From positions 1 to 33,835 of the forward strand of contig VFZW01000023.1 of the NCBI GenBank assembly GCA_016871055.1: a DNA stretch of 33,835 nt, written 5' to 3'. A model generated the notes under the pieces. The model was not told the DNA's origin, did no database searches, and was given only the letters and a program-made list of their open reading frames with translations. Every line of letters begins with the position of its first letter. Position 1 is the stretch's first letter. The stretch is from Acidobacteriota bacterium. Its GTDB lineage: Bacteria > Acidobacteriota > Terriglobia > Bryobacterales > Bryobacteraceae. Both the position numbers and the translations under genes were made by a program. Of this stretch, positions 244-31,233 are shown one piece after another.

Positions 244-1017
244 TCATTTCAAGAATCCGCTTTTGCCGCTGCCGGTGGCCGAGAGTTCGTCGTTGCGCGG
301 ATCGTCGAGGGCGAGGACCTTTCGCAACAGCGGGCTGAGCGCGGTTTGGGTTTCCGGGCGGAGCAACCGTTTCTGATACTGCTGTTGCGGCAGATCGGCT
401 CGGACGTAGAAGCCGTGCAGGGAGCGGCGCGGCGTGGCGGTGTGGTTTTGCGTACCGCCGTGCCAAAGGTGCGAGTTCATCAGCACGACGTCGCCGGCTT
501 GGCCGAGCGTCACCTGCTCATCGGGGTGAGGGGCGTTGGGATCATTCAAGACCTGTTGGGGCGTTTTGCCGGACCGGTGGGTGTTGGGGACGAAGCGGGT
601 GGGGCCATTCAACGGCGTGAAATCGTCGAGCATCCAGATCGAATTAAAGACGGCGAAGCCGCGTTCATCCTCGACCAGGCCCATGTCACAGTGCAACGGC
701 TGGTGGCTTTTTTCGCCGGGAAGGGCAGCGCGGTAGTTGAGGCTCGAAAGTTTGAAGTCGGGGCCGAGTACGGCCTCGGCGGATTCGAGCAGCATGGGAT
801 GGGAGACGAGCCGCCGGAACGTCTCGCCCTTATCGACGAGATTGGCCAGGCGGTCCGATCCTTCTTCTTTCCGAAATTCGCCGCCGGCGTTATCGCCTTC
901 GACTTTCAATATCGCTTCCGTCTCGCGCCGCAACTCGGCGAGCCACTCCGGGTCGATCACGCCACGCATGATCAGGTACCCTTGTTCCTGGAGCAAACGC
1001 TTCTCTTCCAAAGTCAT
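244..1017 (-). CDS. Phytanoyl-CoA dioxygenase (PhyH) family protein
   Basis: This is a 257-residue Fe(II)/2-oxoglutarate-dependent oxygenase of the PhyH family. The metal triad is visible as H109-x-D111 (in PLHCDMG) and a distal His in NSHLWHGG (H186 most likely). R198 in TPRRSLHG fits the 2-oxoglutarate-binding arginine. The NGPTRFVPNTHRSG segment (138-149) is typical of the family. The ATG at 1017 starts at MTLEEKRLLQ; upstream in-frame ATGs would run into the divergent heptosyltransferase gene (start 1046) and add an uncharged, non-homologous leader. The family hydroxylates lipids, natural products or small metabolites, and the substrate cannot be told here. A TACAAT hexamer on the minus strand (1036-1041) could be its -10 box. 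The gene stands alone and ends in the repeat region. Confidence 0.88.
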   Translation of the reverse strand: MTLEEKRLLQEQGYLIMRGVIDPEWLAELRRETEAILKVEGDNAGGEFRKEEGSDRLANLVDKGETFRRLVSHPMLLESAEAVLGPDFKLSSLNYRAALPGEKSHQPLHCDMGLVEDERGFAVFNSIWMLDDFTPLNGPTRFVPNTHRSGKTPQQVLNDPNAPHPDEQVTLGQAGDVVLMNSHLWHGGTQNHTATPRRSLHGFYVRADLPQQQYQKRLLRPETQTALSPLLRKVLALDDPRNDELSATGSGKSGFLK

Positions 1018-1035
1018 GATTGCCGTAACGGTCCG

Positions 1036-1041
1036 ATTGTA
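1036..1041 (-). promoter_or_regulatory. Putative -10 box for the PhyH gene
   Basis: Reads TACAAT on the minus strand, 18 nt before the ATG at 1017. It lies in the 28-bp divergent gap with waaF. No good -35 was found at 17 bp, so this is a weak call. Confidence 0.35.
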
Positions 1042-1045
1042 GCGC

Positions 1046-2092
1046 ATGGAATTTCGCAGAATCCTCATTCGCGCGACGAACTGGGTGGGCGACGCCGTGA
1101 TGTGTTTGCCCGCGATGGCGGCGGTGCGCGCGCGGTTTCCAGAAGCGCACATCACGCTGCTGGCGCGGCCGTGGGTGGCGGGGATCTACGACAACTCTCT
1201 GGTCGACGATGTGATCGCTTACGATCTGGCGCGCGGTCCTCGCGATCTTCGCGCCAAGCGGAAGCTCGCGCGGGAGTTGCAAAGCATGCAGTTCGATTGC
1301 GCGATCCTATTTCAGAACGCGTTCGAAGCGGCGGCGCTGGTGTGGATGGCGCAGATTCCGGCGCGGATCGGGTACGCGCGAGACGGGCGCGAGTTGTTGC
1401 TCACCGACCCGATCGCGGCGCCGGGCAAGGACGAAATTCCGGAGCACCAGCGCTTCTACTATTTGGAAATGCTGCGTCGCGCGGGTTTGATCGAACGCAT
1501 CCCCGAGTGTGAGGCGATTCGCGTGCCCGGCGTCGAGTACTTGCGCGTGCACGGGCGGAAGATGTTGCGGGATCGCGGCGGAAACGGCGACTGGATCGGC
1601 GTAAGTCCAGGCGCGGCGTATGGGACAGCGAAGCGATGGCTGCCAGAACGTTTCGCCGAAGCGGCGATCGATCTGGCGCGGCAGTGCGATGCGGGGGTGG
1701 CGCTGTTCGGCTCGCCGGATGAAAAAGAGTTGTGCGAGAAGGTGCGCGGGATCGTGAGCGGCGCCGATGTGAAGACGATCAATTTCGCGGGCACGGCGAA
1801 GCTGGATGAGTTTGTGGCGATGGCATCGGCGTGCACCGCTTTTCTGACGAACGATTCGGGTGCGATGCATGTGGCGTCGGCGGTGGGCGTGCCGACGGTT
1901 GCGGTGTTCGGCGCGACCGATCATATCGCCACGGGGCCGACGGGGCCGCTGGCGTCGATCGTCCGCGAGCCTGTGGATTGCAGCCCGTGCCTGTTGCGCG
2001 AGTGCCCGACCGATCATCGCTGCATGAAAGCCGTCGAGTCCTCGCGAGTGGCTGAGGAAGCATGGAGACTCGTGCAGATCAGCCAGTCGTAA
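1046..2092 (+). CDS. waaF: ADP-heptose:LPS heptosyltransferase II
   Basis: This 348-residue GT-B enzyme of family GT9 transfers L-glycero-D-manno-heptose from ADP-heptose to the inner core of lipopolysaccharide on the cytoplasmic face of the inner membrane. The N-terminal domain opens with RILIRATNWVGDAVM (5-19), the acceptor-side signature. The nucleotide-sugar domain carries GVSPGAAYGTAKRW (185-198) and NDSGAMHVASAVGVPTVAVF (269-288). The Cys/His cluster DCSPCLLRECPTDHRCM (311-327) is typical of WaaF. It is the first gene of a same-strand run of six and its end overlaps the next gene by 31 bp, suggesting translational coupling. Assignment as heptosyltransferase II rather than I rests on the Cys cluster and on a second GT9 gene at 3900 that looks like WaaC. 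Length is normal. Confidence 0.9.
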   Translation: MEFRRILIRATNWVGDAVMCLPAMAAVRARFPEAHITLLARPWVAGIYDNSLVDDVIAYDLARGPRDLRAKRKLARELQSMQFDCAILFQNAFEAAALVWMAQIPARIGYARDGRELLLTDPIAAPGKDEIPEHQRFYYLEMLRRAGLIERIPECEAIRVPGVEYLRVHGRKMLRDRGGNGDWIGVSPGAAYGTAKRWLPERFAEAAIDLARQCDAGVALFGSPDEKELCEKVRGIVSGADVKTINFAGTAKLDEFVAMASACTAFLTNDSGAMHVASAVGVPTVAVFGATDHIATGPTGPLASIVREPVDCSPCLLRECPTDHRCMKAVESSRVAEEAWRLVQISQS

Positions 2093-3576
2093 AGCAGCGA
2101 TTGATTGCGCTGGCGTTTGCGGCGGTGATTCCGCTGCTGGCCGGATGGCGGTTGGATCAGCCGGGGATTCAAGCCGACGAGGTGTTATTTTCATCGGTGT
2201 TGTGGGAACCGGTCGTACCGTCGCCGATGGTCCGCGTGCTGGGTTTTCGAATTCCGGCGATGTGTTTTCCGTATATGGGCACGGTGAAGTCGGCCATCTA
2301 CGCGGTGCTGTTTCGTTTTGTGGAGCCGTCGAATGAGTCGGCGCGGTGGCCGCCGATATTGCTCTGCGCGCTGACGGTCTACTTGTTCTGCCGGTTGTTG
2401 CAGCGGCTGGGCGAGGATCGCCTGGCGGTGCTGGCGAGTGCGGTGCTTGTTTGCGATGCGACGTTCGTGTTTAAGGCGCGCTGCGATTCCGGGCCGGTGG
2501 TGTTGCAGTGGTTGTTGTGTGTGGCCGGATTTTACTGCTGGGTGCGATTGCGGAGTTGGCCGTGGGCGCTGGCGGCGGGATTCTGTTGGGGGTTGGGGCT
2601 TTGGGACAAGGTTACGTTTCTGTGGATTTTGTTCGGAATCGGCGCGGGGGCGTTGGCGGGGTTGCGCATTCCATGGCGCGCGGTTCCCGTTGCGGCGTTT
2701 GGGTTCTTTCTGGGCGCGTATCCGTTTTTGGCGCACAACGTGAAGACGAATTGGTCGTCGTTTCGCGTGGAGGGCACCCGCGGATTGACCGCCTCCGAGT
2801 TTCGCCCGAAGGCTGAGGCGTTGTGGTACACGATGAACGGGCGGCAACTGTTCGGATCGATGGCGATGATCGATGGGCCGCCGTCGCAGGTTGACAACAC
2901 CGTTGTGCGCATTGGGAAGTTTGCGGGTGAGCCGACGAGTTCGTTGTTTGCGTGGCTGTTCGCTATCGGCGTGCTACTAGGCTGGCGCCACCGATTCTAT
3001 CGTTTTGCGCTGGTTGCGTTTCTGGCTGGTTTTGCGGCGATGGCGCTGGCTGCGGGCGGCGGGAACGCGCCGCATCACCTTGGGCTGCTGTGGCCGTTGC
3101 CGCAATTGATCGTGGCGATGGGGCTGTTGGCGATGCCGTCTTTATTGGCGCGCGGGGCCCTGGCCGTTGTTTTGATCAGCCAGTTGCTGGTTGTCAATCA
3201 ACACTACTCGTTTCTGATTCGGTTTGGCGGCGACGTGGCGTGGACGGATGCGATCGGTCCGCTGTCCGAGCGCATTCGCAAAGATCCTTCGGCGTCTTAT
3301 CGCTTTCTCGACTGGGGCGTCTACGATGCGGCGTACCTGTTGACGCGCGGTAATCGCGCGATGCGGGTGGGGATTCCCGACGACACAGGAGATTGGACGG
3401 CGTCTGTCTACGTACAGCGCGCCGAGGGTTCGATCTTTCTTTCGGACGATTGGAAACGGTTCCGCGAGAAGGCAGCGGCTAAGCGCTTGCTGATTGGCGA
3501 GCAGGAGCGCATCGCCGATTCGTTTGGCCGGCCGACGTTTGTGGTTTTTCGGCTCGCTCCGAATTCGGCACAATAG
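2062..3576 (+). CDS. GT-C fold membrane glycosyltransferase (PMT/ArnT-like)
   Basis: A 504-residue multi-pass membrane protein. It has a first hydrophobic helix at about 13-29, then a loop with GIQADEVLF (35-43) holding the acidic pair usual for the first periplasmic loop of GT-C enzymes, which use polyprenyl-phosphate-linked sugars. About ten further hydrophobic segments follow, to about residue 375, then a soluble C-terminal part of about 130 residues. It overlaps waaF by 31 bp and precedes a nucleotidyltransferase-like gene and waaC, so a role in modifying lipid A, core or another envelope glycan is likely. Donor and acceptor are unknown. The ATG at 2062 is preferred because later in-frame starts would lose the first membrane helix and the acidic motif. 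Overall family is fairly sure, the specific activity is not. Confidence 0.75.
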   Translation: METRADQPVVKQRLIALAFAAVIPLLAGWRLDQPGIQADEVLFSSVLWEPVVPSPMVRVLGFRIPAMCFPYMGTVKSAIYAVLFRFVEPSNESARWPPILLCALTVYLFCRLLQRLGEDRLAVLASAVLVCDATFVFKARCDSGPVVLQWLLCVAGFYCWVRLRSWPWALAAGFCWGLGLWDKVTFLWILFGIGAGALAGLRIPWRAVPVAAFGFFLGAYPFLAHNVKTNWSSFRVEGTRGLTASEFRPKAEALWYTMNGRQLFGSMAMIDGPPSQVDNTVVRIGKFAGEPTSSLFAWLFAIGVLLGWRHRFYRFALVAFLAGFAAMALAAGGGNAPHHLGLLWPLPQLIVAMGLLAMPSLLARGALAVVLISQLLVVNQHYSFLIRFGGDVAWTDAIGPLSERIRKDPSASYRFLDWGVYDAAYLLTRGNRAMRVGIPDDTGDWTASVYVQRAEGSIFLSDDWKRFREKAAAKRLLIGEQERIADSFGRPTFVVFRLAPNSAQ

Positions 3577-3580
3577 AACG

Positions 3581-3907
3581 GTGGACACGAGAACGAAAAT
3601 TGTCGATGCCGCGAGAGGGCCGCTGGCCGTTGCCGCCTATTTCGACCCCATGGTGGCGGCGCATACGGACCGCTTGCGCGAGTTGGCTTTGGAACACGGG
3701 CCGTTGACGGTGTGCGTCTGCGATCCTTCCGATGCATTGCTGCCACCGCGTGCGCGGGCGGAGTTGGCGGCGGCATGCCGCGACGTCGAACGCGTGGTCA
3801 TTGGCGAAGCGGCGCTGGCTGGGTTTGAACGTGTCATCGACGAACGACCCGGCGACACGGAGCGACGCGCGGCGTTGATGCGCCATGTGCAGGCGCGGAA
3901 TGGCTGA
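3581..3907 (+). CDS. Degenerate HldE/RfaE2-like nucleotidyltransferase-fold protein
   Basis: A 108-residue protein starting at GTG 3581, 4 bp after the GT-C gene, and overlapping waaC by 8 bp. It resembles the cytidylyltransferase-type domain of ADP-heptose synthase: AVAAYFDPMVAAHTDRLREL (18-37) lines up with the family FD-xxH-xGH-xxxL stretch, LTVCVCDP with the second strand and its LIVGV-type sequence, and LPPRARAELAAACRDVERVVI with the usual PxxxRAxLLxALxxVDxVVx segment. The HxGH nucleotide-binding motif is not intact: only the second His (AAH) is kept. The domain also ends early, lacking the ISxTxxR end. Catalysis is therefore doubtful. Its place between LPS genes suggests a scaffold, regulatory or relic role linked to heptose supply. 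The homology is recognised by eye only and needs a structure or profile check. Confidence 0.6.
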   Translation: MDTRTKIVDAARGPLAVAAYFDPMVAAHTDRLRELALEHGPLTVCVCDPSDALLPPRARAELAAACRDVERVVIGEAALAGFERVIDERPGDTERRAALMRHVQARNG

Positions 3908-4859
3908 GGTTTTGTTCGTCCGGTTGGGCGCGTTTGGCGATGTGCTGCACGCGTTGCCGGCGGCCGCGTCGCTAAAACGCGGACTGCGCGGCGTGCGGCT
4001 GACGTGGGTCATCGAACCGCGTTGGAAGTGGCTGCTGGCGGGGAATCCGGATGTCGACGAAATTATCGAATTGAACCGGCGATCGGCGGAGAGTGTGCGA
4101 GCGGCGTGGGGCGCGTTGCGGTCGAAGCGATTCGATATCGCCGTCGATGCACAAGGTCTGATCAAGTCCGCGCTTGTGGCGCGGGCGAGCGGCGCGCCGG
4201 TGCGCATCGGTTACGCACGGGGTGTTGCGCGTGAAGGGTTGTCGACATTGTTCTACACGTCGCGCGTTACGCCGGCCGGCGCGCATGTTGTCGAGCATGG
4301 CCTGGCGCTGGCGGCGGCGGCGGGGCCGGAACAGTTGACGATCGATTTTCCGTTGCCGTCCGGCGCTTCAGAAGGCGTGTTGCCCGATGGCCCGTTTGTG
4401 CTGGCCGCGCCGTTTGCGGGATGGAAAGGCAAGCAATGGCCGATCGAATATTATGGCGAACTCGGCGCGTTGCTAAAACAGAAAGGGTACAGTTTGGTTT
4501 TGAACGTTGCGCCGGGCGCGGCTGTGCCCGAGGGTGTTGTTGTGCACACGAGTTCGATTAACGGCTTGCTGGATGCGACGCGCCGCGCGGCGGCTGTTGT
4601 TGGACTTGATAGCGGTCCGATGCATTTGGCCGCGGGGCTTGGAAAGAAGGGCGTGGCGCTATTCGGCCCGACCGATCCGGCGCGCAACGGACCGTATGGA
4701 GGGACGATTGAAGTCCTGCGCGATCCAACCGCGCCCACGACATATCGGAGAATAGATGAGATCCTTCCCTGTATGCGCGCGCTGTCGCCGCGGCGGGTGT
4801 TTGAACGATTGCTTCCATGCCTGGCTACCTCTTCCCCAAACCCTACGCCGACGCGGTAG
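3900..4859 (+). CDS. waaC: LPS heptosyltransferase I-like glycosyltransferase (GT9)
   Basis: A 319-residue GT9 family protein starting at AEVLFVRLGAFGDVLHALPA (2-21), the usual N-terminal signature of heptosyltransferase I, which adds the first heptose to Kdo. The C-terminal nucleotide-sugar domain has AAPFAGWKGKQWP and GLDSGPMHLAAGLGKKGVAL followed by FGPTDPARNGPYG. ATG 3900 is chosen over an upstream ATG at 3885 because the motif begins immediately after it and it gives an 8-bp overlap with the preceding gene. Its 3' end overlaps the methyltransferase gene by 43 bp. With waaF in the same operon the two successive core heptose additions are covered. WaaC versus another GT9 acceptor specificity is inferred from sequence flavour and context. 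Confidence 0.85.
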   Translation: MAEVLFVRLGAFGDVLHALPAAASLKRGLRGVRLTWVIEPRWKWLLAGNPDVDEIIELNRRSAESVRAAWGALRSKRFDIAVDAQGLIKSALVARASGAPVRIGYARGVAREGLSTLFYTSRVTPAGAHVVEHGLALAAAAGPEQLTIDFPLPSGASEGVLPDGPFVLAAPFAGWKGKQWPIEYYGELGALLKQKGYSLVLNVAPGAAVPEGVVVHTSSINGLLDATRRAAAVVGLDSGPMHLAAGLGKKGVALFGPTDPARNGPYGGTIEVLRDPTAPTTYRRIDEILPCMRALSPRRVFERLLPCLATSSPNPTPTR

Positions 4860-5374
4860 CGCGGTGGCGCGTGCCCAGCGGGTTCATACTGTTGGCCGCG
4901 TTTCTGTGGCTAAGCGCGCCGTCTTTGTCGAGCCTGCCGGCCGGGATTGGCGTGTCGCTGTGCGGGTTGGCGCTGCGCGCGTGGGCGGCGGGGCATCTGG
5001 AAAAGAACGAACGGTTGATCGATAGCGGGCCGTATCGATACACGCGCAATCCGCTGTATCTGGGCACGTTTATCGCGGCGGTGGGGCTGGCTATCGCTGG
5101 GCGGTCGTGGGTTGTCGGCGGCATTTCCGTGGCTGTTTTCGCGCTGGTGTATTTGCCTGTGATGGAGGCCGAGGAGCAGCACTTGCGGAAGCTGTTTGCG
5201 TCGTACGCCGCGTACGCGGATGCGGTGCCGTTGCTCGCGCCGGGGTTCTCGTATGCGGGATCGCCGACACGGTTCCGTTCGGCGTTGTATCTTCGAAATG
5301 AAGAGTACAAGGCGTTTGGAGGATTTCTGGCCGCGGTTGCATTCTTGTGGTGGAGGGCTAACGGTGCACATTGA
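4817..5374 (+). CDS. Isoprenylcysteine carboxyl methyltransferase-family membrane protein
   Basis: A 185-residue integral membrane protein of the ICMT/PEMT-like superfamily. Hydrophobic helices occur at about 22-38, 43-58, 82-98 and 100-115. The SAM-binding signature GPYRYTRNPLYLG (71-83) is intact, followed by the characteristic EAEEQHLRKLFASYAAYADAV (117-137). Bacterial members methylate lipids or other small acceptors; true isoprenylcysteine substrates are not expected. The gene overlaps waaC by 43 bp and the next gene by 11 bp, so it is part of the envelope operon and may methylate an envelope lipid or glycan. Fold assignment is firm, substrate unknown. Confidence 0.85.
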   Translation: MPGYLFPKPYADAVARWRVPSGFILLAAFLWLSAPSLSSLPAGIGVSLCGLALRAWAAGHLEKNERLIDSGPYRYTRNPLYLGTFIAAVGLAIAGRSWVVGGISVAVFALVYLPVMEAEEQHLRKLFASYAAYADAVPLLAPGFSYAGSPTRFRSALYLRNEEYKAFGGFLAAVAFLWWRANGAH

Positions 5375-9033: not shown

Positions 9034-11553
9034 GTGCGAATTGCGGTGTTGCTATTGGGTGTATCGATCGCGCAGGGCAATGACCTGTTTGAAACGCGGG
9101 TGCGCCCGGTTTTGATGGAGCGGTGCGCGGGGTGTCATGGCGCGTCGGAAACTTCGGGGCTGCGGGTGGATTCGCGCGAGCGGTTGCTGCGCGGCGGGAA
9201 GCGCGGGCCGGCTGTGATTGCCGGTAAGCCGGATGCGAGTTTGCTGCTGGCGGCGGTGCGGGGGCAGTCGTTGCAAATGCCGCCCGCGGGGCGGTTGAGC
9301 GATGCGGAGATTGGTGCTCTTGAGACCTGGGTTCGTGATGGGGCTGTGTGGCCTGTTGCGGTTTCGGCGGTTCAGTCGAGCGGCGTGTTCTGGTCGTTTG
9401 AGCCGCTGCGACCGGTTACTGGATCGATCGACACACACGTTCGCGCCGGACTGAACGGGATTGCGCCGAATCCCCGGGCGGATCGGCGTACTTTGATTCG
9501 GAGGCTATATGCCGATTTGACCGGTCTGCCGCCGTCGCCGTTTGAAGGGACGATTGAACAGCTTGTCGATAGGCTGCTGGCTTCGCCGCAGTTCGGCGAG
9601 CGCTGGGGCCGACACTGGCTCGATGTGGCGCGTTTCGGCGAGGACGATTTTTCCGGCACGGCGCCGAAGCCGTATCCGAATGCGTGGCGGTATCGCGACT
9701 GGGTGATCGATGCGTTCAACAACGATATGCCTTACGACATGTTTGTGCGCGCGCAGCTTGCCGCGGACTTAATGCCTGGCGATAACAAGAAGTACATCGG
9801 CGGGCTTGGGCTTTTCGGATTTGGTCCCTGGTATTACGGCATCACGCAGCCGCCGCAGGCGCGCGCCGATGAGCGGCACGATCGCGTCGATGTTGTCACA
9901 CGCGGTTTTCTTGGGCTCACGGCGGCGTGCGCGCGCTGCCACGATCACAAGTACGATCCGATTCCGCAGAAGGACTACTATGCGCTGTCGGGTGTGTTTG
10001 CGTCGAGCGAGTACAAGGAGTATCCGCTGGTCGACGATAAGACGCGCGAGGCGTACGAAGCCGCGCAGAAACGCATCAAGAACGTGCAGAAGGAGATTGA
10101 TGCGTTTATCGCGGCGCAGCGCGATTCGTTGGCGGAGATCTATTCGCGGCAGACGGCTGCGTTTCTCATGGGCCGCGCTGGGCTTGATGCCGATGTCGCG
10201 GCGCGGTGGAAAGAGTACCTGAAGAAGCCGGAAGAAGACTTTCCGTTTTTGAAGCCGTGGTTGGCGTCGAAGAGTGAAGCCGATGCGCAACAGTTTCAGG
10301 ATCTGCTGCTGGCCGTTGTTGAAGAGAAGCGGGCGATGGACGACGAAAATAAGCGCGCCGTCATTCGCGGAACGGCGCCCGATGAAAAACGCCGTAAGAT
10401 CATTTTGCCCGGCAATTACGACTCCGAGGCAGACTTCAATCCGGGCAGCGAGGTGGTGACGAAGTCGCTCGACCGCGAGCGTTATCAGCTTTGGCAGAAG
10501 ATGATTGGCCGGACTGAAGCTCTTTATCGCCTCGACGAGAAGGGTGTGGAGAAGCGGCTGACTGGTGAGTGGAAGCGGCATCTCGATGGGCTACGGGCCG
10601 AGCTTGTTCGATTGAAGAAGGCGTCGCCGCCGCCGTATCCGTATCATCAGGGCCTGACCGAGCACACGCAGCCGATCGATCTGCCGCTCGATCTGCGCGG
10701 CGATCCAACCAGACCGGGCGAAATTGTTCCACGACATTTCCTGACGAGTTTGTCGAACGGGCGCGAAATTTCTTTGCGCGAGGGCAGCGGGCGGGCGCAG
10801 TTGGCGGAGGCGATCGTCGCGCATCCGCTGGCCGCGCGCGTGATGGCCAATCGTATTTGGGCGTGGTTGTTCGGCGCGGGTGTGGTGCGGACGCCGTCGA
10901 ATTTCGGACTGATGGGTGAGCGGCCGGCCAATCGCGCGCTACTTGAGTATTTGGCCGCGCGGTTCGCCGCGTTGCAATTTTCTCCGAAGGCGTTGATTCG
11001 CGAGATCGTGCTGTCGGAGACGTATCAGGCATCGAGCGCCGCCGCACAGAATGCCGATCCGGATAATCGTCTTTTCTGGCGAGCGAATCGCAAACGGTTG
11101 GACGCCGAATCGATCCGCGATGCGATATTGGCTGTGAGCGGTGAACTGGATTCGAAGGTCGGCGGCGAGTCGTCCGAACTTTCCGACTCCAACGTGCGGC
11201 GTACCGTCTACGTGCGGGTCGGGCGGTATCAGCAGAACGAAACGCTGGCGCTGTTCGATTTTCCCAGCACGTCCGTGCACGTTGAAAAACGCGCCGTGAC
11301 GAACGTGCCGCTGCAGAAACTGTTCTTCCTGAATAGCCGGTTCTTTCGCTTCCGATCCGAGGCGCTCGCGCAGCGCGCCGAGTGCGCGGCGACTTCTATC
11401 GACGAGCGCGTGGCGCTGCTGCATCAGTGGCTTTTTCAACGCGCGCCTTCGTCCGAAGAGGCCGCAACCGCTCGCGAGTTCCTACGCGATTCCACTTTGC
11501 CGCAGTACGCCCAGGTGCTGCTTTCCACCAACGAGTTTCTTTATGTCGATTGA
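9034..11553 (+). CDS. Exported PSCyt1/DUF1549/DUF1553 cytochrome-type protein
   Basis: An 839-residue protein with a short signal peptide (MRIAVLLLGVSIAQG) and the layout known from planctomycetes and acidobacteria. First comes a cytochrome-c-like PSCyt1 domain with haem motif CAGCH (31-35). DUF1549 follows (about 148-305: RRLYADLTGLPPSPFE, RWGRHWLDVARFGEDD, YRDWVIDAFNNDMPYDMFV) and contains a second CxxCH, CARCHDHKYDP, near 299-309. A charged, probably coiled-coil middle (about 340-540) leads to DUF1553 (about 570-835: HPLAARVMANRIWAWLFG, IREIVLSETYQ). The function is not established; linkage to DUF1501 genes and haem motifs suggest periplasmic redox or polymer processing. The GTG start gives the signal peptide directly. 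It overlaps the DUF1501 gene by 11 bp. Confidence 0.9.
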   Translation: MRIAVLLLGVSIAQGNDLFETRVRPVLMERCAGCHGASETSGLRVDSRERLLRGGKRGPAVIAGKPDASLLLAAVRGQSLQMPPAGRLSDAEIGALETWVRDGAVWPVAVSAVQSSGVFWSFEPLRPVTGSIDTHVRAGLNGIAPNPRADRRTLIRRLYADLTGLPPSPFEGTIEQLVDRLLASPQFGERWGRHWLDVARFGEDDFSGTAPKPYPNAWRYRDWVIDAFNNDMPYDMFVRAQLAADLMPGDNKKYIGGLGLFGFGPWYYGITQPPQARADERHDRVDVVTRGFLGLTAACARCHDHKYDPIPQKDYYALSGVFASSEYKEYPLVDDKTREAYEAAQKRIKNVQKEIDAFIAAQRDSLAEIYSRQTAAFLMGRAGLDADVAARWKEYLKKPEEDFPFLKPWLASKSEADAQQFQDLLLAVVEEKRAMDDENKRAVIRGTAPDEKRRKIILPGNYDSEADFNPGSEVVTKSLDRERYQLWQKMIGRTEALYRLDEKGVEKRLTGEWKRHLDGLRAELVRLKKASPPPYPYHQGLTEHTQPIDLPLDLRGDPTRPGEIVPRHFLTSLSNGREISLREGSGRAQLAEAIVAHPLAARVMANRIWAWLFGAGVVRTPSNFGLMGERPANRALLEYLAARFAALQFSPKALIREIVLSETYQASSAAAQNADPDNRLFWRANRKRLDAESIRDAILAVSGELDSKVGGESSELSDSNVRRTVYVRVGRYQQNETLALFDFPSTSVHVEKRAVTNVPLQKLFFLNSRFFRFRSEALAQRAECAATSIDERVALLHQWLFQRAPSSEEAATAREFLRDSTLPQYAQVLLSTNEFLYVD

Positions 11554-12913
11554 TCGCAGAGCCCTTCTTGCCCGCGCCGGCAGCGGTTTCGGCGCGATTG
11601 CGCTGGCCGATTTGATGCACGCCGAAGATCCGTTCGCGCCGAAGCCGCCGCACTTCGCGCCGAAGGCCAAGCGCATTATCTACATGATCATGAACGGCGG
11701 GATGTCGCAGGTCGATACGTTCGATCCGAAGCCCTCGCTGACGAAGTATCACGGACAGAAGATGCCCAGCGAGCAGCCGAAGACCGAACGCATTACGGGG
11801 TCCCTGATGCGTTCGCCGTTCGAGTTCAAGAAGTCGGGGCAGAGCGGCATCGAGGTCAGCGAGATCTTTCCGAACATCGCGCGCAACATCGACAAATTCA
11901 GCGTGATCCGGTCGATGCATACCGATGTGCCGAATCATGAGCCGTCGTTGTTCATGATGAACTGCGGGGCGATTCAACCGGGGCGGCCGTCGCTTGGCTC
12001 GTGGCTGACTTATGGCCTTGGTACGGCGAATCGGAATCTGCCGGGCTACATCGTGTTGTGCCCCGGTACGCCTGTTGTGGGGCCGCCGCTGTGGGAGTCG
12101 GCATTTTTGCCGGCGGTGTATCAGGGGACGTTCGTGAAGGCGCAGGAGAAAGATCCGCGCAAGTCGGTGCAGTTTCTCGATCGCGATGGAAGGCCCGAGA
12201 CCGCGCAACGGAAACAGTTGGATCTGCTGCGCGCGTTGAATGAGAAGCATCGGGAAGCGCGGCAGGGCGATTCGGATTTGGACGCCGCGATCCAATCGAT
12301 GGAGAGGGCGTTCCGTATGCAGACCGAGGTACCCGAGGTTTTCGACATTGCGAAGGAATCGGAAAAGACACGAGAGCGGTATGGTGATTCCGATTTTGGG
12401 CGGAGTTGTTTGATGGCGCTGCGGCTGGTGGAAAAGGGCGTGCGGATGGTGCAACTTTATTACGGCAACAGCCAGCCTTGGGACTCGCACGAGGACATTC
12501 AGGCGCATCGCGCCAACGCGCGGCGGGCCGATCCGGCGGTTGGCGCGTTGGTGGAAGATCTCGACGCGCGTGGGTTGTTGAACGAAACGCTTGTCGTCTT
12601 CGGCACGGAGTTCGGCCGCACGCCGGCGGTGGAGAATTCGTCGCTTGTGAAGTTGCAGAACGGGCGCGATCATAACTCGGCGGGCTATTCGATTCTTGTC
12701 GCGGGCGGCGGTGTCCGCGGCGGATACGTTCATGGCGCGACCGATGAGTTTGGTTATCGCGCGGTGGACAAGCGCGTGCATAATCACGATCTCAATGCGA
12801 CGCTGCTGCACTTGATGGGACTCGATCACACCAAGCTCACGTACTTTTATAGCGGCCGGAATTTTCGCTTAACCGATGTTCACGGCGAGGTCGTGCGCGA
12901 AGTGCTTGCATAA
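11543..12913 (+). CDS. DUF1501 (sulfatase-like) Tat-exported protein
   Basis: A 456-residue DUF1501 protein, a family related to the alkaline phosphatase/sulfatase fold. The N terminus MSIDRRALLARAGSGFGAIA has the twin Arg of a Tat signal. Family segments are [76 protein letters not shown] and the end LMGLDHTKLTYFYSGRNFRL. The GMSQVDTFD, H-x-D and final H-rich stretches are candidate metal ligands. It overlaps the upstream DUF1549/DUF1553 gene by 11 bp, the usual partnership, so the two products are probably made together and may act as a complex. The substrate is unknown. Confidence 0.9.
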   Translation: MSIDRRALLARAGSGFGAIALADLMHAEDPFAPKPPHFAPKAKRIIYMIMNGGMSQVDTFDPKPSLTKYHGQKMPSEQPKTERITGSLMRSPFEFKKSGQSGIEVSEIFPNIARNIDKFSVIRSMHTDVPNHEPSLFMMNCGAIQPGRPSLGSWLTYGLGTANRNLPGYIVLCPGTPVVGPPLWESAFLPAVYQGTFVKAQEKDPRKSVQFLDRDGRPETAQRKQLDLLRALNEKHREARQGDSDLDAAIQSMERAFRMQTEVPEVFDIAKESEKTRERYGDSDFGRSCLMALRLVEKGVRMVQLYYGNSQPWDSHEDIQAHRANARRADPAVGALVEDLDARGLLNETLVVFGTEFGRTPAVENSSLVKLQNGRDHNSAGYSILVAGGGVRGGYVHGATDEFGYRAVDKRVHNHDLNATLLHLMGLDHTKLTYFYSGRNFRLTDVHGEVVREVLA

Positions 12914-21588: not shown

Positions 21589-22622
21589 TTCGCCACCTTC
21601 GTGAACGTCATGGTCCGGCCGTTCTGTTCGAGTTTGATCGACCCCGCGCCGTCGAACGTCAATTTGCCGTTCACGGCCGCGAGTGTGAAGACCGTGTCAC
21701 TCTCCGCGGCCATCGCAAACTTCGGCTGACCCGTGCCCTGCACGTACATGATTCCGTCGGCCGCCGTGACGTCGAGCTTCAGCGGTACATCGGTCGAACC
21801 GTATTCGCCGACGTACTTGTTCAACACCGCCATGTCGGTTTTCTTTGCCGGAGGCAGCATGCCTTTGCGAACGAACTCAATGTTCTGCCCATTTTGATTC
21901 AGCGTGAAACCGTCCTTCTTGAAGGTGGCTTTCAGATTCGCGGGCGCGAAGCTGAATTCGGTCGCGCTATCGGCGCTTAGCGGCGCGGCCTGCTGGCCCT
22001 CGGCCTATATCTTTAACTGACCCGCTTCGTTCAAGATCTTTATCGGTACCGGAATCGCTTGCGAAGCGTACTCACCCGCGTACGAGGCGAGCGTTTCCGC
22101 CGCGACCTTTTCGATCTTCGGTTCCGGCGCGCCAGCCTTGCGGAGCACCGCGGCCATGTCGTCTTTCTTCACCGTGATTGCGGCCTTCAGCGCGCCTTCC
22201 AATTCGGCCGGTGTGAACTTGTGTTGCAGCGCCGCTTGTAACAGCGCGGCGTTGCCCATGCCAACCGTCATGTTCAGTTGCCGGCCCGTAAGTGTGACGC
22301 CCTTGGCGAGCACCGCCTTCACCACGTCGGTCAACTGTTTCTGTAACGCGCCGTCGATCAGCGACGACTTATAGAATGTGTCTGTCACGTTCGGGTTTGC
22401 GCCCTTTTCCAGCAGAAGCAACGCCACTTCGGCATGCCGGTTAAAAACGGCCATGAAGAGCGGCGTGGAGCCGTACTGGTTTTTCCATTCGAGCGGGGCG
22501 CCCGCTTCGAGCAACTTCTTCACCTCCGCCAACTGGCCGCGGCGCGCGGCGGTATGCAAGTCCTCGCCCGGGTCGGCAAACAGCGCCATGCCCGCGAGAA
22601 TTATAATCAGGAATAGTTTCAT
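21585..22622 (-). pseudogene. Ankyrin-repeat protein with tandem C-terminal domains, split by an amber codon
   Basis: One frame runs 346 codons from ATG 22622 to TGA 21585 and is broken only by TAG at codon 206 (22005-22007). The N terminus is a signal peptide (MKLFLIIILAGMALFAD), then ankyrin repeats (DLHTAARRGQLAEVKKLLEA, GSTPLFMAVFNRHAEVALLL). Two related C-terminal units follow, beginning YAGEYASQAIPVPIKI and YVGEYGSTDVPLKLDV, in the style of DUF3471. In the second unit a Gln (V-Q-G-T-G-Q) stands where the first has the stop (I-stop-A-E-G-Q), so one CAG to TAG change explains the break. GGAG and AGAGG lie just upstream of the ATG. A sequencing error or read-through cannot be excluded. The upstream half (205 aa) and the 91-aa downstream half could each be made. 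Confidence 0.8.
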
Positions 22623-24822
22623 GCAGCCTCTCTTCTCTCCAACGTCCATGGTACCAATTTGTTCCCTTTTTGTTCTAGCGCTGCCGCTGATGGCCGACTG
22701 GGTCGATTGGCGCGGCCCGAATCGCGACGGGCGTTCGCCGGAAAAAAACCTGCCGGCTTTGTGGTCGCCCGCGGGTGAGAACCTCGCGTGGAAAGCGCCC
22801 GTCGGCGGCCGTTCGGCACCCGTTGTGCACGGCGATCATGTTTACATTCTCACTGTGCTCGGCACCGGCAAGAACCTGCAAGAGCGTCTGGTGTGCCTGG
22901 ACACCGATACAGGGAAACAGCTCTGGGAGCAGCGGATTAATCTCTGGTTGAGCGACGTGCCGCCGCATCGCGCGGCGTGGTCTTCGCCGTCGGTGGATCC
23001 GGAGAGTGGCAATGTCTTTGTCTTCAGCGTTCATGGTGTGCTCACTGCCTTTACACGCGACGGCAAGAAGCTATGGGAGCGCTCGTTGGCCGAAGATTTT
23101 GCCTTTGTAACGACGCACGGCGGCCGGACCGGATCGCCAATCGTCGATGGCGAACTGGTCATCGTCAACGGCATCTCGACCGGTTGGGGCGCGCTGTCGC
23201 GAGCGGGTCACCGTTTCTGGGCGTTCCATAAGAAGAACGGCGAACTCGTATACTTGAGCGCGCCTGGCGGACGGCCGTACGACACGACGTATTCACCGCC
23301 CATCATCGCCGAGATCGACGGTGTCCGGCAGTTGATCGCCGGTGGCGGCGACGGGAACGCCCACGCCGTGAAGGCACAGACCGGAGAAGCGCTGTGGCGC
23401 TACGAGGTTTCGAAGCGCGGCCTGAACACGGGTGTGGTCGTCAACGGCAAGACCGCCTACATCACGCACAGCGAAGAGAATTTGGACACGAGTGAAATGG
23501 GCCTGTTCAGCGCGATCGATGCGACCATGCGCGGGCCGATCAAGAAGGATCAGGCGAAGTTTTACTACCCGGGCTATCAGCTCGGTTTGAGTTCGCCGAT
23601 TATCGACGGCGACCGGTTCCTGCAGGTCGACAACGGCGCCAACATCTTCGCCTTCGACGTGCAGACCGGCAAGCAGATCTGGAAGCAAAACCTCGGTACG
23701 ATTCAGAAATCGTCGATGGTGCTTGGGGACGGGAAACTGTACGTCGGTACGGAGAACGGCAAGTTCTATATCGTCAAACCGCACAACGACCGCGCCGAGA
23801 AGTTGAGCGAAGTGTCGTTCATCAAGCCCGGCGAAAGCGAGGAGGAAGGCGAGAAGGTGATCGCGTCGGTGGCGATCAGCCAGGGGCGGGTGTTCCTTGT
23901 TACGACGAAGAACACCTACGCGATCGGAAAGAAACAGGCCGCACCGAAGGTCGATTTGCCGAAGCCGGTCAGCGCCGCTGCTGGCGCAGCCGCGAAGTTC
24001 TTGCAAGTCGTTCCCGCCGAGATTCTGATTAAGCCGGGCGAGTCCGCGAATTTCCGCGCGCGTCTTTTCGATGAGAAGGGCAACTTCATTCGCGAGGAGA
24101 AGGCCACGTGGGCGATCGAAGGCTTGAAGGGCGTGATCAACCAGGATGGCAGGTACATTGCGTCGTCGGATAAAGTCGCCCAGGCCGGCATATTAAAAGC
24201 CACGGCCGCGGGTGTGACGGGGCAGGCTCGCGTGCGCGTGGTTCCGCCGCTCGATTGGAACTGGGACTTCGAGTCGATGAACGTCGACACGGTTCCGATG
24301 GAATGGGTTAATTGCAATACCAAGTACGCCGTGCGACAGGAAGAGGGCAACAAGGTGCTAGTGAAGTTTGCCGACAATCCCGCCACCAAACGCGCGCGTG
24401 TGTTCATGGGGCCGACCGATCTGTACGATTACACGGTGCAAGCCGATGTGCGCGCTTCGCAGAAGCGACGGCAGATGGGCGATGTCGGCGTCGTGGCGCA
24501 ACGGTTCAATTTGATGTTGTTCGGCAATGCGGAGAAAGTGGAACTGCAGACGTGGCAGCCCGAGACGGAACGCACCACGTCCGCGAAGTATCAATGGAAG
24601 TGGGATACGTGGTACACGATGAAACTGCGCGTCGAGAATTTGCCGGATGGCCGCGTGAAGGCGCAGGGCAAGGTCTGGCCGAAGAGCGAGGCGGAGCCCG
24701 CCGCTTGGACCGTGGAACGCATCGACCCCGCCAATCTCGCCGAACGCCAAGGCGCGCCTGGCATCTACGCCGACGCCCCGTATGAAGTCTTTTTCGATAA
24801 CGTGAAGGTAACCAAAAACTGA
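22621..24822 (+). CDS. Secreted PQQ-like beta-propeller with C-terminal jelly-roll domain
   Basis: A 733-residue exported protein. Residues 1-25 form a signal-like hydrophobic start. About 30-440 are PQQ-like blades (WRGPNRDGRSPEKNLPALW, CLDTDTGKQLWEQRI, FDVQTGKQIWKQNLGT). About 465-540 resembles an Ig-like domain (VVPAEILIKPGESANFRARL, DGRYIASSDKVAQAG, VRVVPP). The last 190 residues look like a concanavalin-type jelly roll (WDFESMNVDTVP, YDYTVQADVRASQKRRQMGD, WYTMKLRVENLPDGRVKAQG, VFFDNVKVTKN). ATG 22621 is preferred over ATG 22648 because AGGAA at 22609-22613 is spaced 7 nt from it; the choice is uncertain. Its ATG shares the CATG 22620-22623 with the divergent ankyrin gene. It joins the next propeller gene by a 1-bp overlap. 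Confidence 0.83.
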   Translation: MQPLFSPTSMVPICSLFVLALPLMADWVDWRGPNRDGRSPEKNLPALWSPAGENLAWKAPVGGRSAPVVHGDHVYILTVLGTGKNLQERLVCLDTDTGKQLWEQRINLWLSDVPPHRAAWSSPSVDPESGNVFVFSVHGVLTAFTRDGKKLWERSLAEDFAFVTTHGGRTGSPIVDGELVIVNGISTGWGALSRAGHRFWAFHKKNGELVYLSAPGGRPYDTTYSPPIIAEIDGVRQLIAGGGDGNAHAVKAQTGEALWRYEVSKRGLNTGVVVNGKTAYITHSEENLDTSEMGLFSAIDATMRGPIKKDQAKFYYPGYQLGLSSPIIDGDRFLQVDNGANIFAFDVQTGKQIWKQNLGTIQKSSMVLGDGKLYVGTENGKFYIVKPHNDRAEKLSEVSFIKPGESEEEGEKVIASVAISQGRVFLVTTKNTYAIGKKQAAPKVDLPKPVSAAAGAAAKFLQVVPAEILIKPGESANFRARLFDEKGNFIREEKATWAIEGLKGVINQDGRYIASSDKVAQAGILKATAAGVTGQARVRVVPPLDWNWDFESMNVDTVPMEWVNCNTKYAVRQEEGNKVLVKFADNPATKRARVFMGPTDLYDYTVQADVRASQKRRQMGDVGVVAQRFNLMLFGNAEKVELQTWQPETERTTSAKYQWKWDTWYTMKLRVENLPDGRVKAQGKVWPKSEAEPAAWTVERIDPANLAERQGAPGIYADAPYEVFFDNVKVTKN

Positions 24823-26243
24823 TGACACGCAAGAATGTGCAAACCGCGCTGCTCGGCGGCGCTCTGCTCGCCGGCTATTTGACCGCGAGCGACGCCGCAA
24901 AAGACTGGCCGATGTGGGGCGGAACCATGGATCGCAACATGGTCTCCAACATGAAGGGCGTTCCCGACAAGTGGGATTACGCGAAGAAGGAGAACGTCAA
25001 GTGGGTCTCCAAGCTTGGTTCGCAGAGTTACGGGAATCCGGTCGTCGCCAACGGCGTCGTGCTTGTCGGCACGAATAACGAAGGCCTGCGCGATCCGAAA
25101 CAAGGCGGCGATCGCGGCGTGCTGATCGCCTTCCGCGAGTCCGACGGCGAGTTCCTTTGGCAGATCACGCACGAAAAACTGGCCGCGGGCCGCGTCAACG
25201 ATTGGCCGTATCAGGGCGTCTGCTCCTCGCCGCTGGTTGAGGGCGATATCGTTTACTACGTGTCCAGCCGCGGCGAAGTGATCGCCGCCGATTTGAAGGG
25301 GATGGCGAACGGTAACGACGGCCCGTTCAAGGGCGAGAAGCATACCGGTCCAAAAGACGGCGACATCTTGTGGTCGTTCGACATGATGGAAGAGGTTGGC
25401 GCGTTCCAACACAACATGGCCAATAGCTCGCCTGTGATTCTCGGCGATTTGATCTACGTCTCGACTTCAAATGGCCAGGATGAAAGCCACGTCAACGTGC
25501 CGTCGCCGAAGGCGCCGTCGATCATTGCGCTGAACAAGAAGACGGGCAAACTGGTGTGGGAAGATAACTCGGTCGGCGAGCGGATTCTGCACGGCCAGTG
25601 GTCGTCGGCGGCGGTCGGCAAGATTGGCGATGTCGTTCAGACCGTCATCGGTCAGGGCGATGGATGGGTGCGCGGCTACGAAGCGATGTCGGGCAAGAAG
25701 CTGTGGGAGTTCGATATGAATCCCAAGGATTCGGTGTGGCCGAAGACGCGCAACGAAGTGATCTCGACGCCGATCATCGTCGACGGGATCGTCTATATCG
25801 GCAACGGTCAGGATCCGGAGCATGGCGAAGGCCCAGGGCACTTGTATGCCATCGACGGCACCAAGCGTGGCGACATCACCAAGAGCGGTTTGATTTGGCA
25901 CTTCGATAAGATTCGCCGATCGATTTCGACCGGCGCGTTTAAGGATGGCTTGCTTTACTACGCCGACTTCTCCGGCTTCCTGCATTGCGTGGACGCCAAG
26001 ACCGGTACCGAGCTTTGGAATCACGACATGCTCGCGGCCGTGTGGGGCTCGCCGATTATCATCGATGGGAAGGTCTATCTTGGCGATGAAGATGGCGACG
26101 TTTCCGTGCTTGCGCATGGGCGGACGAAGAAGCTGCTGTTTGAGACGAACATGGGCAGTTCGATTTACTCGACGCCCGTGCCGGCGAATGGGACGCTGTT
26201 TATTGTCAATCGGAATGAGTTGATTGCGATAGGGAAGAAGTAG
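24822..26243 (+). CDS. Secreted PQQ-like beta-propeller protein
   Basis: A 473-residue PQQ-like propeller. The signal peptide is MTRKNVQTALLGGALLAGYL with a cleavage near SDAAKDW. Blades show WPMWGGTMDRNMVSN, LIAFRESDGEFLWQITHE, ALNKKTGKLVWEDNS, YEAMSGKKLWEFDMN, DAKTGTELWNHDML and VLAHGRTKKLLFETN. Stop-start overlap with the upstream propeller is TGATG, so both are made together. The stop (26241-26243) abuts the stop of the convergent nucleotidyltransferase gene. Cofactor and partner are unknown. Confidence 0.87.
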   Translation: MTRKNVQTALLGGALLAGYLTASDAAKDWPMWGGTMDRNMVSNMKGVPDKWDYAKKENVKWVSKLGSQSYGNPVVANGVVLVGTNNEGLRDPKQGGDRGVLIAFRESDGEFLWQITHEKLAAGRVNDWPYQGVCSSPLVEGDIVYYVSSRGEVIAADLKGMANGNDGPFKGEKHTGPKDGDILWSFDMMEEVGAFQHNMANSSPVILGDLIYVSTSNGQDESHVNVPSPKAPSIIALNKKTGKLVWEDNSVGERILHGQWSSAAVGKIGDVVQTVIGQGDGWVRGYEAMSGKKLWEFDMNPKDSVWPKTRNEVISTPIIVDGIVYIGNGQDPEHGEGPGHLYAIDGTKRGDITKSGLIWHFDKIRRSISTGAFKDGLLYYADFSGFLHCVDAKTGTELWNHDMLAAVWGSPIIIDGKVYLGDEDGDVSVLAHGRTKKLLFETNMGSSIYSTPVPANGTLFIVNRNELIAIGKK

Positions 26244-26684: not shown

Positions 26685-26835
26685 CTTTTTTCTGAACCAG
26701 TTCTGGATTTAGCGCAAGCAGCATGTCCGACATCTCGACAAAGTGCTGCATGCGTTCTTCAATCGTCAGCGATTGGAACCAACGCGCTTTTGCCGCTGGA
26801 GTCTCTTCGGCGCGGTCGTGCGAAATCGAGTGCAT
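26638..26835 (-). CDS. Small protein overlapping the nucleotidyltransferase gene
   Basis: A 65-residue acidic protein, unrecognised. It has a helical middle (AAKARWFQSLTIEERMQHFV, EMSDMLLALNPELVQ) and no membrane segment, and ends inside the nucleotidyltransferase start region (47 bp overlap). The size, order and overlap resemble an antitoxin or partner subunit, but nothing in the sequence shows DNA binding. The ATG at 26835 is 51 bp from the divergent DUF1549 gene. Confidence 0.6.
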   Translation of the reverse strand: MHSISHDRAEETPAAKARWFQSLTIEERMQHFVEMSDMLLALNPELVQKKDAQPVPGRIRVLTLE

Positions 26836-26867
26836 CCACTTTCATTCTACGCCGCCCCGCAACCCGA

Positions 26868-26873
26868 TATAAT
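26868..26873 (+). promoter_or_regulatory. Putative -10 box (TATAAT) for the second DUF1549 gene
   Basis: A perfect TATAAT ends 13 nt before ATG 26887. Predicted transcription start would leave a 5' leader of about 7 nt containing AAAGGA directly against the ATG. No good -35 is seen. Confidence 0.5.
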
Positions 26874-26886
26874 TATCGGCAAAGGA

Positions 26887-29847: not shown

Positions 29848-29850
29848 CGC

Positions 29851-31233
29851 ATGGACCGCCGCCAATTTCTAACCAAATCACCCGCGGGCCTGGCCGCGCT
29901 GCAACAACTCCTCGCCGCCGAGGAAGGCGCGCTGCCGCATTTCGCGCCCAAAGCGAAACGCATCATCTATTTGTTCATGTACGGTGGGCCGTCGCAGATT
30001 GAGACGTTCGATTACAAGCCGCGGTTGAAGCAGATGCACGGCGAGGAGTTGCCCGGTTCGATCCGCATGGGCCAGCGACTTACGGCGATGACGGCGACGC
30101 AGACGAAGTTCCCCGTCGCGCAGTCGATCTACAACTTCGCACAGCACGGCAAGTCCGGCGCATGGGTCAGCGAATTGTTGCCGCACACGGCCAAGGTTGC
30201 CGACAGGTTGTGCTTCATCAAAACGATGCACACCGAGCAGATCAACCACGATCCGGGCATCACGTTTTTCCAAACCGGTTTTCAGCTCGCGGGCCGGCCG
30301 TCGCTTGGCGCGTGGCTGTACTACGGGCTCGGCAGCGAGAGCAAGGATCTGCCGTCGTATGTGGTGATGACGACCGCAGGATCGAAGAACGGCGATCAAC
30401 CGCTGGCCGATCGCGTGTGGGGCAGTGGCTTTTTGCCGAGTAGTTTTCAGGGCGTGCGGTTCCGCTCCGGGGCCGACCCGGTGCTGCATCTTTCGAACCC
30501 CGCGGGAATGGATAGCGAGATGCGGCGGCGTTTTCTCGATGGCCTTGCTGAGATGAATCGCGATCAGCAGGCGCAGACCGGCGACGTCGAAATTGCCACG
30601 CGCATCGCGCAGTACGAGATGGCGTTCAAGATGCAATCGTCGGTGCCGGACTTGACCGATCTGTCGAAGGAGCCCGCGCATGTGGTCGATAATTATGGCC
30701 CGGACGCGCGTAAGCCGGGCTCATTCGCGGCGAACTGTTTGCTCGCGCGGCGATTGTCCGAGCGCGGCGTGCGCACGGTGCAGCTGTTCCATCGCGGATG
30801 GGATCATCACCGCAATTTGCAGGAGTCGTTGCCCTTGCAATGCAAGGCGGTGGATCAGGCGTCGGCGGCGCTGGTGGCCGATTTGGCGCAGCGCGGATTG
30901 TTGGACGAAACGCTCCTCGTGTGGGGCGGGGAGTTTGGGCGGACCGTCTACTGCCAAGGCCCGCTCACCCCGACCGAGTACGGCCGCGATCATCACCCGC
31001 GCTGCTTCACGATTTGGATGGCCGGCGGTGGCATCAAGCCGGGCATGACCCTCGGTGCGACCGACGATTTTTCTTACAACGTGACCGAAGATCCCGTGCA
31101 CGTGCACGACCTGCACGCGACGATTCTTCATTGCATGGGGGTCGATCATACGCGGCTGACGTTTAAGTTTCAGGGCCGGCATTATCGGCTGACCGATGTG
31201 CATGGCAACGTCGTGAAAAAAGTCCTGGCATGA
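29851..31233 (+). CDS. DUF1501 (sulfatase-like) Tat-exported protein
   Basis: A 460-residue DUF1501 protein, paralogous to the one at 11543. The Tat-type start is [20 protein letters not shown]. Family segments are [77 protein letters not shown] and the tail [20 protein letters not shown]. GxSQxETFD, HxxxxNHDP and VDHTRL are candidate metal ligands. It lies 3 bp after the LamG-bearing partner and overlaps the next gene by 4 bp (ATGA at 31230-31233). Confidence 0.9.

Follow-up and report, generated by a model that had tools for sequence, protein, structure and literature searches.

Trypanosomatid prozymes are non-catalytic partner subunits, and their activation of the live enzyme has been shown by experiment. 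The protein of interest here, X, resembles them as a dead paralogue retained beside a live one, and is known here from sequences alone. The closest described enzymes are the RfaE2/HldC proteins, such as HldC of B. pseudomallei (BpHldC; 5x9q/5xf2), for which the available part of PMC7993394 names TNG, NSD, KG, and KGG as substrate motifs. For the cytidylyltransferases more widely, the available part of PMC8262930 gives RYVDEVI as part of the dimer interface, has HxGH and RTXGISTT binding CTP, and describes both HxGH histidines and Arg113 of TagD as essential. A limited literature search found no paper on heptose in Bryobacter and, judged by titles, none on a protein such as X.

The window, by which we mean the whole 33,835-nucleotide stretch of DNA that was analysed (contig VFZW01000023.1 of the Acidobacteriota assembly GCA_016871055.1), carries X in a lipopolysaccharide heptose operon with the features listed in the table. 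X is like RfaE2/HldC in its fold, its N-terminal two thirds, an FD..H pattern, and a RAELVAALxxVDYV block, but it differs in being without the TNG Asn, the first HxGH His, the NSD Asn, two lysines, and the HST end. A still nearer relative is an intact enzyme, HldC-a, found in operons of other families of the class (loci L096, L105, L165-L193, and L218-L235), which is encoded in the same place before waaC or PEMT, gives the nearest profile, and in some members has the same MDTR/MNTRxKI start. It differs from X in keeping all five of the residues discussed below in 49 of 49 sequences.

Table. Features of X and of its operon, with positions counted from the first letter of the window.
Feature	Position	Strand	Remarks
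X	3581..3907	+	truncated, catalytically eroded RfaE2/HldC relative, as indicated by profiles and fold; 108 aa; GTG start
VDTRxKI N-terminus of X	3581..3601	+	D2, R4, and K6 invariant in 69/69 aligned rows
FDPMVAAH, eroded HxGH region	3641..3664	+	Asp22 and, in 77% of X, the last His are retained; first His and Gly are missing
LPPRARAELAAACRDVERV	3740..3796	+	best-conserved block of X; alignment by eye places its end at the cytidylyltransferase RYVDEVI motif
C-terminal segment of X	3833..3904	+	mostly helix 89-107; D..RR..L..HV..R
waaF, heptosyltransferase II	1046..2092	+	TIGR02195, 205.7 bits, above cut-off
GT-C/PMT-like protein	2062..3576	+	Pfam PMT_2 and PMT matches slightly below cut-offs; membrane protein
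waaC-like heptosyltransferase I	3900..4859	+	TIGR02193, 142 bits, below cut-off 185; 8-bp overlap with X
PEMT, phospholipid/isoprenylcysteine methyltransferase-like (PEMT/ICMT-type)	4817..5374	+	usual downstream neighbour

A single-sequence search with the window protein gives hits in 38 of 61 genomes, its own included, so X is not a chance ORF, and the preliminary description was right to treat 3581-3907 as a gene. Its account of the junctions is also confirmed, with 4 bp between the GT-C stop, which ends at 3576, and X, and 8 bp shared between X and waaC, whose ATG lies at 3900. The gene order that it gave, GT-C followed by X and waaC, stands for the window, but the upstream GT-C is only local: a match to it occurs in 6 of 71 related loci, and the gene has been inserted locally, after waaF and before X. 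Directly upstream, within 300 bp, is waaF in 51 of the 71 loci; it is more distant in 10 and was not found in 10. Downstream, waaC adjoins X in 65 of the 69 X loci on the named genome contigs. The others are L072 and L099, where waaC lies 1.9 and 2.6 kb from X, L101, where the contig ends, and L090, where the last 1.0 kb of contig after X holds no waaC match. On the far side of waaF, a PhyH-type dioxygenase gene (window 244-1155, minus strand) is divergent from waaF and overlaps its start as called, and a match to it is seen in 47 of the 71 related loci. Further along, positions 9034-12913 encode a PSCyt1-DUF1549-DUF1553 protein and then a DUF1501 protein in tandem, and more large ORFs lie at 22378-26243 and 26743-31233.

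Searching with the window ORF by itself gave nothing useful from Pfam, NCBIfam, or PDB in single-sequence mode. It has no match to TIGR02199 (curated cut-off 181.5 bits) at E = 0.01, and at E = 1 its sole NCBIfam match is vanJ with 13 bits, so the relation of X to RfaE2 is visible only with family profiles. A 69-member X profile matches B. pseudomallei HldC (5x9q) with E = 2e-4. Individually, 34 of the 69 members match TIGR02199 at E = 0.01 or better, and 14 match PF01467 at E = 0.01, with HAD matched instead or also in 3 of the 69; the window ORF is in neither the TIGR02199 nor the PF01467 group. Aligned by hhalign against 8 chosen HldC-a sequences, the 69 X sequences score a probability of 99.4% and E = 1.3e-21, with 35% identity over 85 columns beginning at the MDTRxKI start. 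The AlphaFold model of X has a pLDDT of 95.2 and a pTM of 0.87. VIA-align finds its best fold match in HldC 5xf2 of B. pseudomallei, with Z = 9.3 and 2.1 A over 88 residues, followed by 3hl4 at Z = 8.4 and 1coz at Z = 7.9. Foldseek also puts 5xf2 at the top, with a probability of 1.00 and E = 1.7e-3, and finds nothing at E = 0.001 or better. X is therefore assigned, by its model and its profile together, a predicted cytidylyltransferase-like nucleotidyltransferase fold homologous to that of RfaE2. Judged by its residues, X is a descendant of HldC with the same fold and is not HldC as an enzyme, the defining residues being absent.

To see what was lost, 49 HldC-a and 74 X sequences were aligned and numbered as in L096, leaving out the X of L053, L101, and G032. 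N31, H38, N60, K69, and K116 are present in 49/49 HldC-a versus 0/74 X, and by eye N31, N60, K69, and K116 fall in the TNG, NSD, KG, and KGG motifs that the available part of PMC7993394 names for BpHldC. Within HxGH, the first His is found in 0/74 X, the Gly in 3%, and the second His in 77%. At the C-terminal HST segment, K145 is at 100% in HldC-a versus 0% in X, H147 at 100% versus 1%, and S148 at 96% versus 1%. Nothing in the 74 aligned X corresponds to the lysine loop or the KGTDY block, and the HST end is absent in about 99% of them. The window protein follows this pattern: its HxGH position reads V-A-A-H (residues 25-28), with only the second His surviving, and neither the KGTDY block nor the HSTxxL/ISTT end (HSTREL of the intact enzyme) has a counterpart, which agrees with the earlier observation that HxGH is eroded and the ISxTxxR end missing. 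Kept in X are D35 (99%), H41 (77%), L76 (99%), R81 (100%), A82 (99%), L84 (97%), A86 (100%), and V94 (100%), and the RARAELVAALxxVDYV block as a whole is retained. The RYVDEVI-type columns, placed by eye, are partly kept, with V91 at 84%, D92 at 57%, and V94 at 100%. Less eroded members also exist, reading FDILRAGH in L090 and FDILRAEH in L205, and these suggest that X has decayed gradually.

Where X came from can be approached through the rest of the class. A search of 299 genomes, the window's order included, found an RfaE2 match at E = 1e-15 in 284, and many genomes outside the order carry two. In the best-hit loci from outside the order (n = 30), an intact HldC-a lies directly before waaC in 27 and directly before PEMT in 3. 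In an 85-row tree, which was made by a quick method and is unrooted with long branches, the 33 X rows of both families of the order form one group (SH-aLRT 98), with 'b' (the canonical RfaE2 of the window's order, encoded by hldC-b) and other types lying beyond the 'a' rows; four second RfaE2 copies from outside the order formed no single group. By its place and its sequence, X is the eroded counterpart of intact HldC-a. X descends from an operonic paralogue, HldC-a, still intact in other families of the class. In the order's ancestor this paralogue shed its C-terminal part, its lysine loop, and most of its catalytic residues, and through the erosion it retained its Rossmann core along with the RARAELVAALxxVDYV block.

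X is widely retained in the order and under purifying selection. Scanning named contigs gave 71 loci, with the short form X in 69 and an intact enzyme, followed by waaC, in two (L096 and L105); the relatives with names come from Acidobacteria MAGs, often with the label Bryobacterales, and the closest is 95% identical. In the second family of the order (f3), X precedes waaC in all 6 loci read. An order-wide scan matched 242 of 257 genomes, a figure that includes cross-hits to canonical RfaE2 and is not an X count. X is 104-139 aa long versus about 160 aa for intact RfaE2/HldC, and 12 columns are invariant across 69 X sequences. Its dN/dS, by the Nei-Gojobori method, which is crude at high dS, is 0.05-0.42 with a median of 0.13 in 17 chosen pairs, and waaC has a median of 0.145 in 16 pairs, the value of L040/L051 being dropped because of a contig end. 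The preliminary wording of HldE-like, degenerate, conserved, and part of the operon is thus backed by profile, fold, synteny, and selection.

The window's own genome also encodes 'b', a canonical RfaE2 whose sequence has HPGH and HSTTNI, on a different contig from X (G000:C131), which rules out X as the genome's only adenylyltransferase. TIGR02199 matches at E = 1e-10 occur in 231 of the 257 genomes of the order, other RfaE2 types included. In 11 of the 71 named loci, not every one of which spans 8 kb, hldC-b is found less than 8 kb upstream of X, and in 8 of these it is divergent and at most 2.6 kb away.

To follow the distribution of the two genes, a waaC tree was made for 69 genomes, chosen for a readable waaC locus and with a non-random set of X-bearing rows made up of best hits and close relatives of losers. 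X and hldC-b occur together in 50, neither in 18, X without hldC-b in one (G032), and hldC-b without X in none. Independent pairs taken on supported branches agree in 5 of 5, for a sign test p of 0.0625, the minimum attainable with five pairs; taking all branches of the best waaC tree gives 7 pairs. The best E value of the 'b' query is 1e-16 to 3e-40 in the 18 X-less genomes versus 8e-55 or better in the 50 with both. These 18 have waaC with no X before it, and waaF is beside waaC in 15 and unseen in 3. The type of RfaE2 that took over was read for 13 of these genomes (the remaining five, G066, G067, G076, G080, and G081, are all of genus g33). It is a third RfaE2 type in G065 (in part), G074, G075, and G079, also of g33, with G074 having a kinase-fused one as well; a fusion to a HAD/GmhB-like phosphatase in G084, G090, G102, G147, G204, G205, G210, and G211, confirmed by NCBIfam in G147 and called by eye in the other seven; and a kinase-fused HldE in G097.

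Two sister rows show the loss in progress. G019 has both X and hldC-b, and G147 has decaying remnants of both: between waaF and waaC there is only a short X remnant with VDTRSKILT and RARVELVAALRMVDYVV, and elsewhere are the RfaE2-GmhB fusion and an hldC-b that has large gaps in frame. In the exception, G032, hldC-b has been replaced and X is open with an eroded core, having ARAAVVAGL for ARAELVAAL. X is present in divergent form in G107. A further eleven genomes have hldC-b with X weak or not found; in eight of them (G119, G198, G137, G146, G157, G191, G246, and G252) there is no waaC at E = 1e-25, and in G099, G200, and G245 the contig ends beside waaC. These eleven are no proven loss and give no support to a partnership either. 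At least 12 X-bearing genomes without any RfaE2 match, left out of the tree (G008, G011, G061, G110, G148, G162, G165, G176, G185, G199, G201, and G214), are incomplete assemblies or real exceptions and count against a partnership. Also left out were G001, G006, G002, G005, G013, and G018, for a partial RfaE2, cut loci, or brevity. An HldC does not in general depend on X: outside the order, genomes of family f11, e.g., G357, G366, G384, and G474, show one RfaE2 match each, and their waaC is preceded by neither 'a' nor X.

From the co-occurrence and co-loss with hldC-b we infer, tentatively and at somewhat less than an even chance, that X, the eroded HldC-a descendant, most likely serves as a non-catalytic partner subunit of HldC-b. 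As such it would stabilise or regulate HldC-b, or hold it near WaaF/WaaC. Against this stand the dimer-motif columns, which are only partly kept, the placement of the window genome's hldC-b on a separate contig, and G032, which keeps X without hldC-b. Moreover, co-loss fits any role of X within the same pathway, beyond physical partnership. A stricter version, in which the order has a hetero-oligomeric HldC whose live subunit needs the dead, truncated X encoded with the heptosyltransferases, would make X a bacterial prozyme in lipopolysaccharide synthesis, and as judged from the sequences it is rather doubtful. Overall, X appears to be an RfaE2-family pseudoenzyme that has been conserved, with the partner hypothesis moderately supported. 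The roles floated in the preliminary description fare accordingly: partnership with a canonical HldC is the one that the distribution favours, and altered chemistry and a strict dependence of WaaC on X are disfavoured, the latter by the 18 genomes with waaC and no X, which rule out that waaC always requires it.

A looser tie to the neighbouring enzymes is an adaptor that binds WaaF/WaaC and hands over activated heptose, forming no dimer with HldC-b. The near-constant adjacency of waaC and the 8-bp overlap speak for such an adaptor, but waaF stands beside waaC with no intact X in 15 of the 18 X-lacking genomes (waaC being alone in 3) and the loss of X tracks the type of HldC, making it unlikely. 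It is quite improbable that the old nucleotide/sugar cleft now binds a pathway metabolite and regulates heptose flow as a small-molecule sensor; the retention of Asp22 (99% of X) and His28 (77%), together with the Rossmann core, would suit a sensor, but the Asn and Lys positions matching the BpHldC substrate motifs, as far as the available part of PMC7993394 gives them, are gone in 74/74. That X is a relic, a mere spacer for translational coupling of the flanking genes, would account for the tight junctions on both sides and for the existence of X-less genomes. A mere spacer would not preserve protein sequence, however, and given a dN/dS of about 0.13, and 12 columns that never vary among 69 sequences, we regard this as highly improbable. 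Continued nucleotidyl transfer with altered chemistry is hardly credible: conserved Asp, His, and Arg residues (the FD Asp and second His mostly kept) and purifying selection could be cited for it, but the five substrate/catalytic residues are absent in 74/74, the first HxGH His, lysine loop, KG(T)D lysine, and HST end are missing from every or nearly every aligned X, and the HxGH histidines and Arg113 are among the residues described as essential for TagD in the available part of PMC8262930. X may also have a role in another sugar route.

X is an order-wide example of a bacterial core-pathway enzyme that has become a pseudoenzyme, and it can be compared with less eroded forms and with intact relatives that occupy the same locus in other families. 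That the losses of X track a swap of the live paralogue makes the function of the dead one testable. There is also a caution for annotation, which is that an HldE-like gene in such an operon may be inactive and the canonical copy may lie elsewhere.

Other steps of the heptose pathway were looked for in 23 genomes. At E = 1e-40, no TIGR02198 kinase was found in the X-bearing G024, G129, G040, and G047, and the window's own genome and G003 have only kinases distant from TIGR02198 (147-148 bits). The distant heptose kinase relative of the window's own genome (L297, G000:C100) scores 146.7 bits, below cut-off, and no heptose gene was recognised by eye among the genes around it. GmhA matches occur in 21 of the 23 genomes, none above cut-off. 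In G084 (L252/L258, contig C122) and G147 (L254/L259, contig C437), a heptose kinase with an eroded RfaE2 domain adjoins the intact RfaE2-GmhB-like phosphatase fusion, so that, by sequence, a putatively dead RfaE2 domain is again paired with a live one; neither genome has an intact X.
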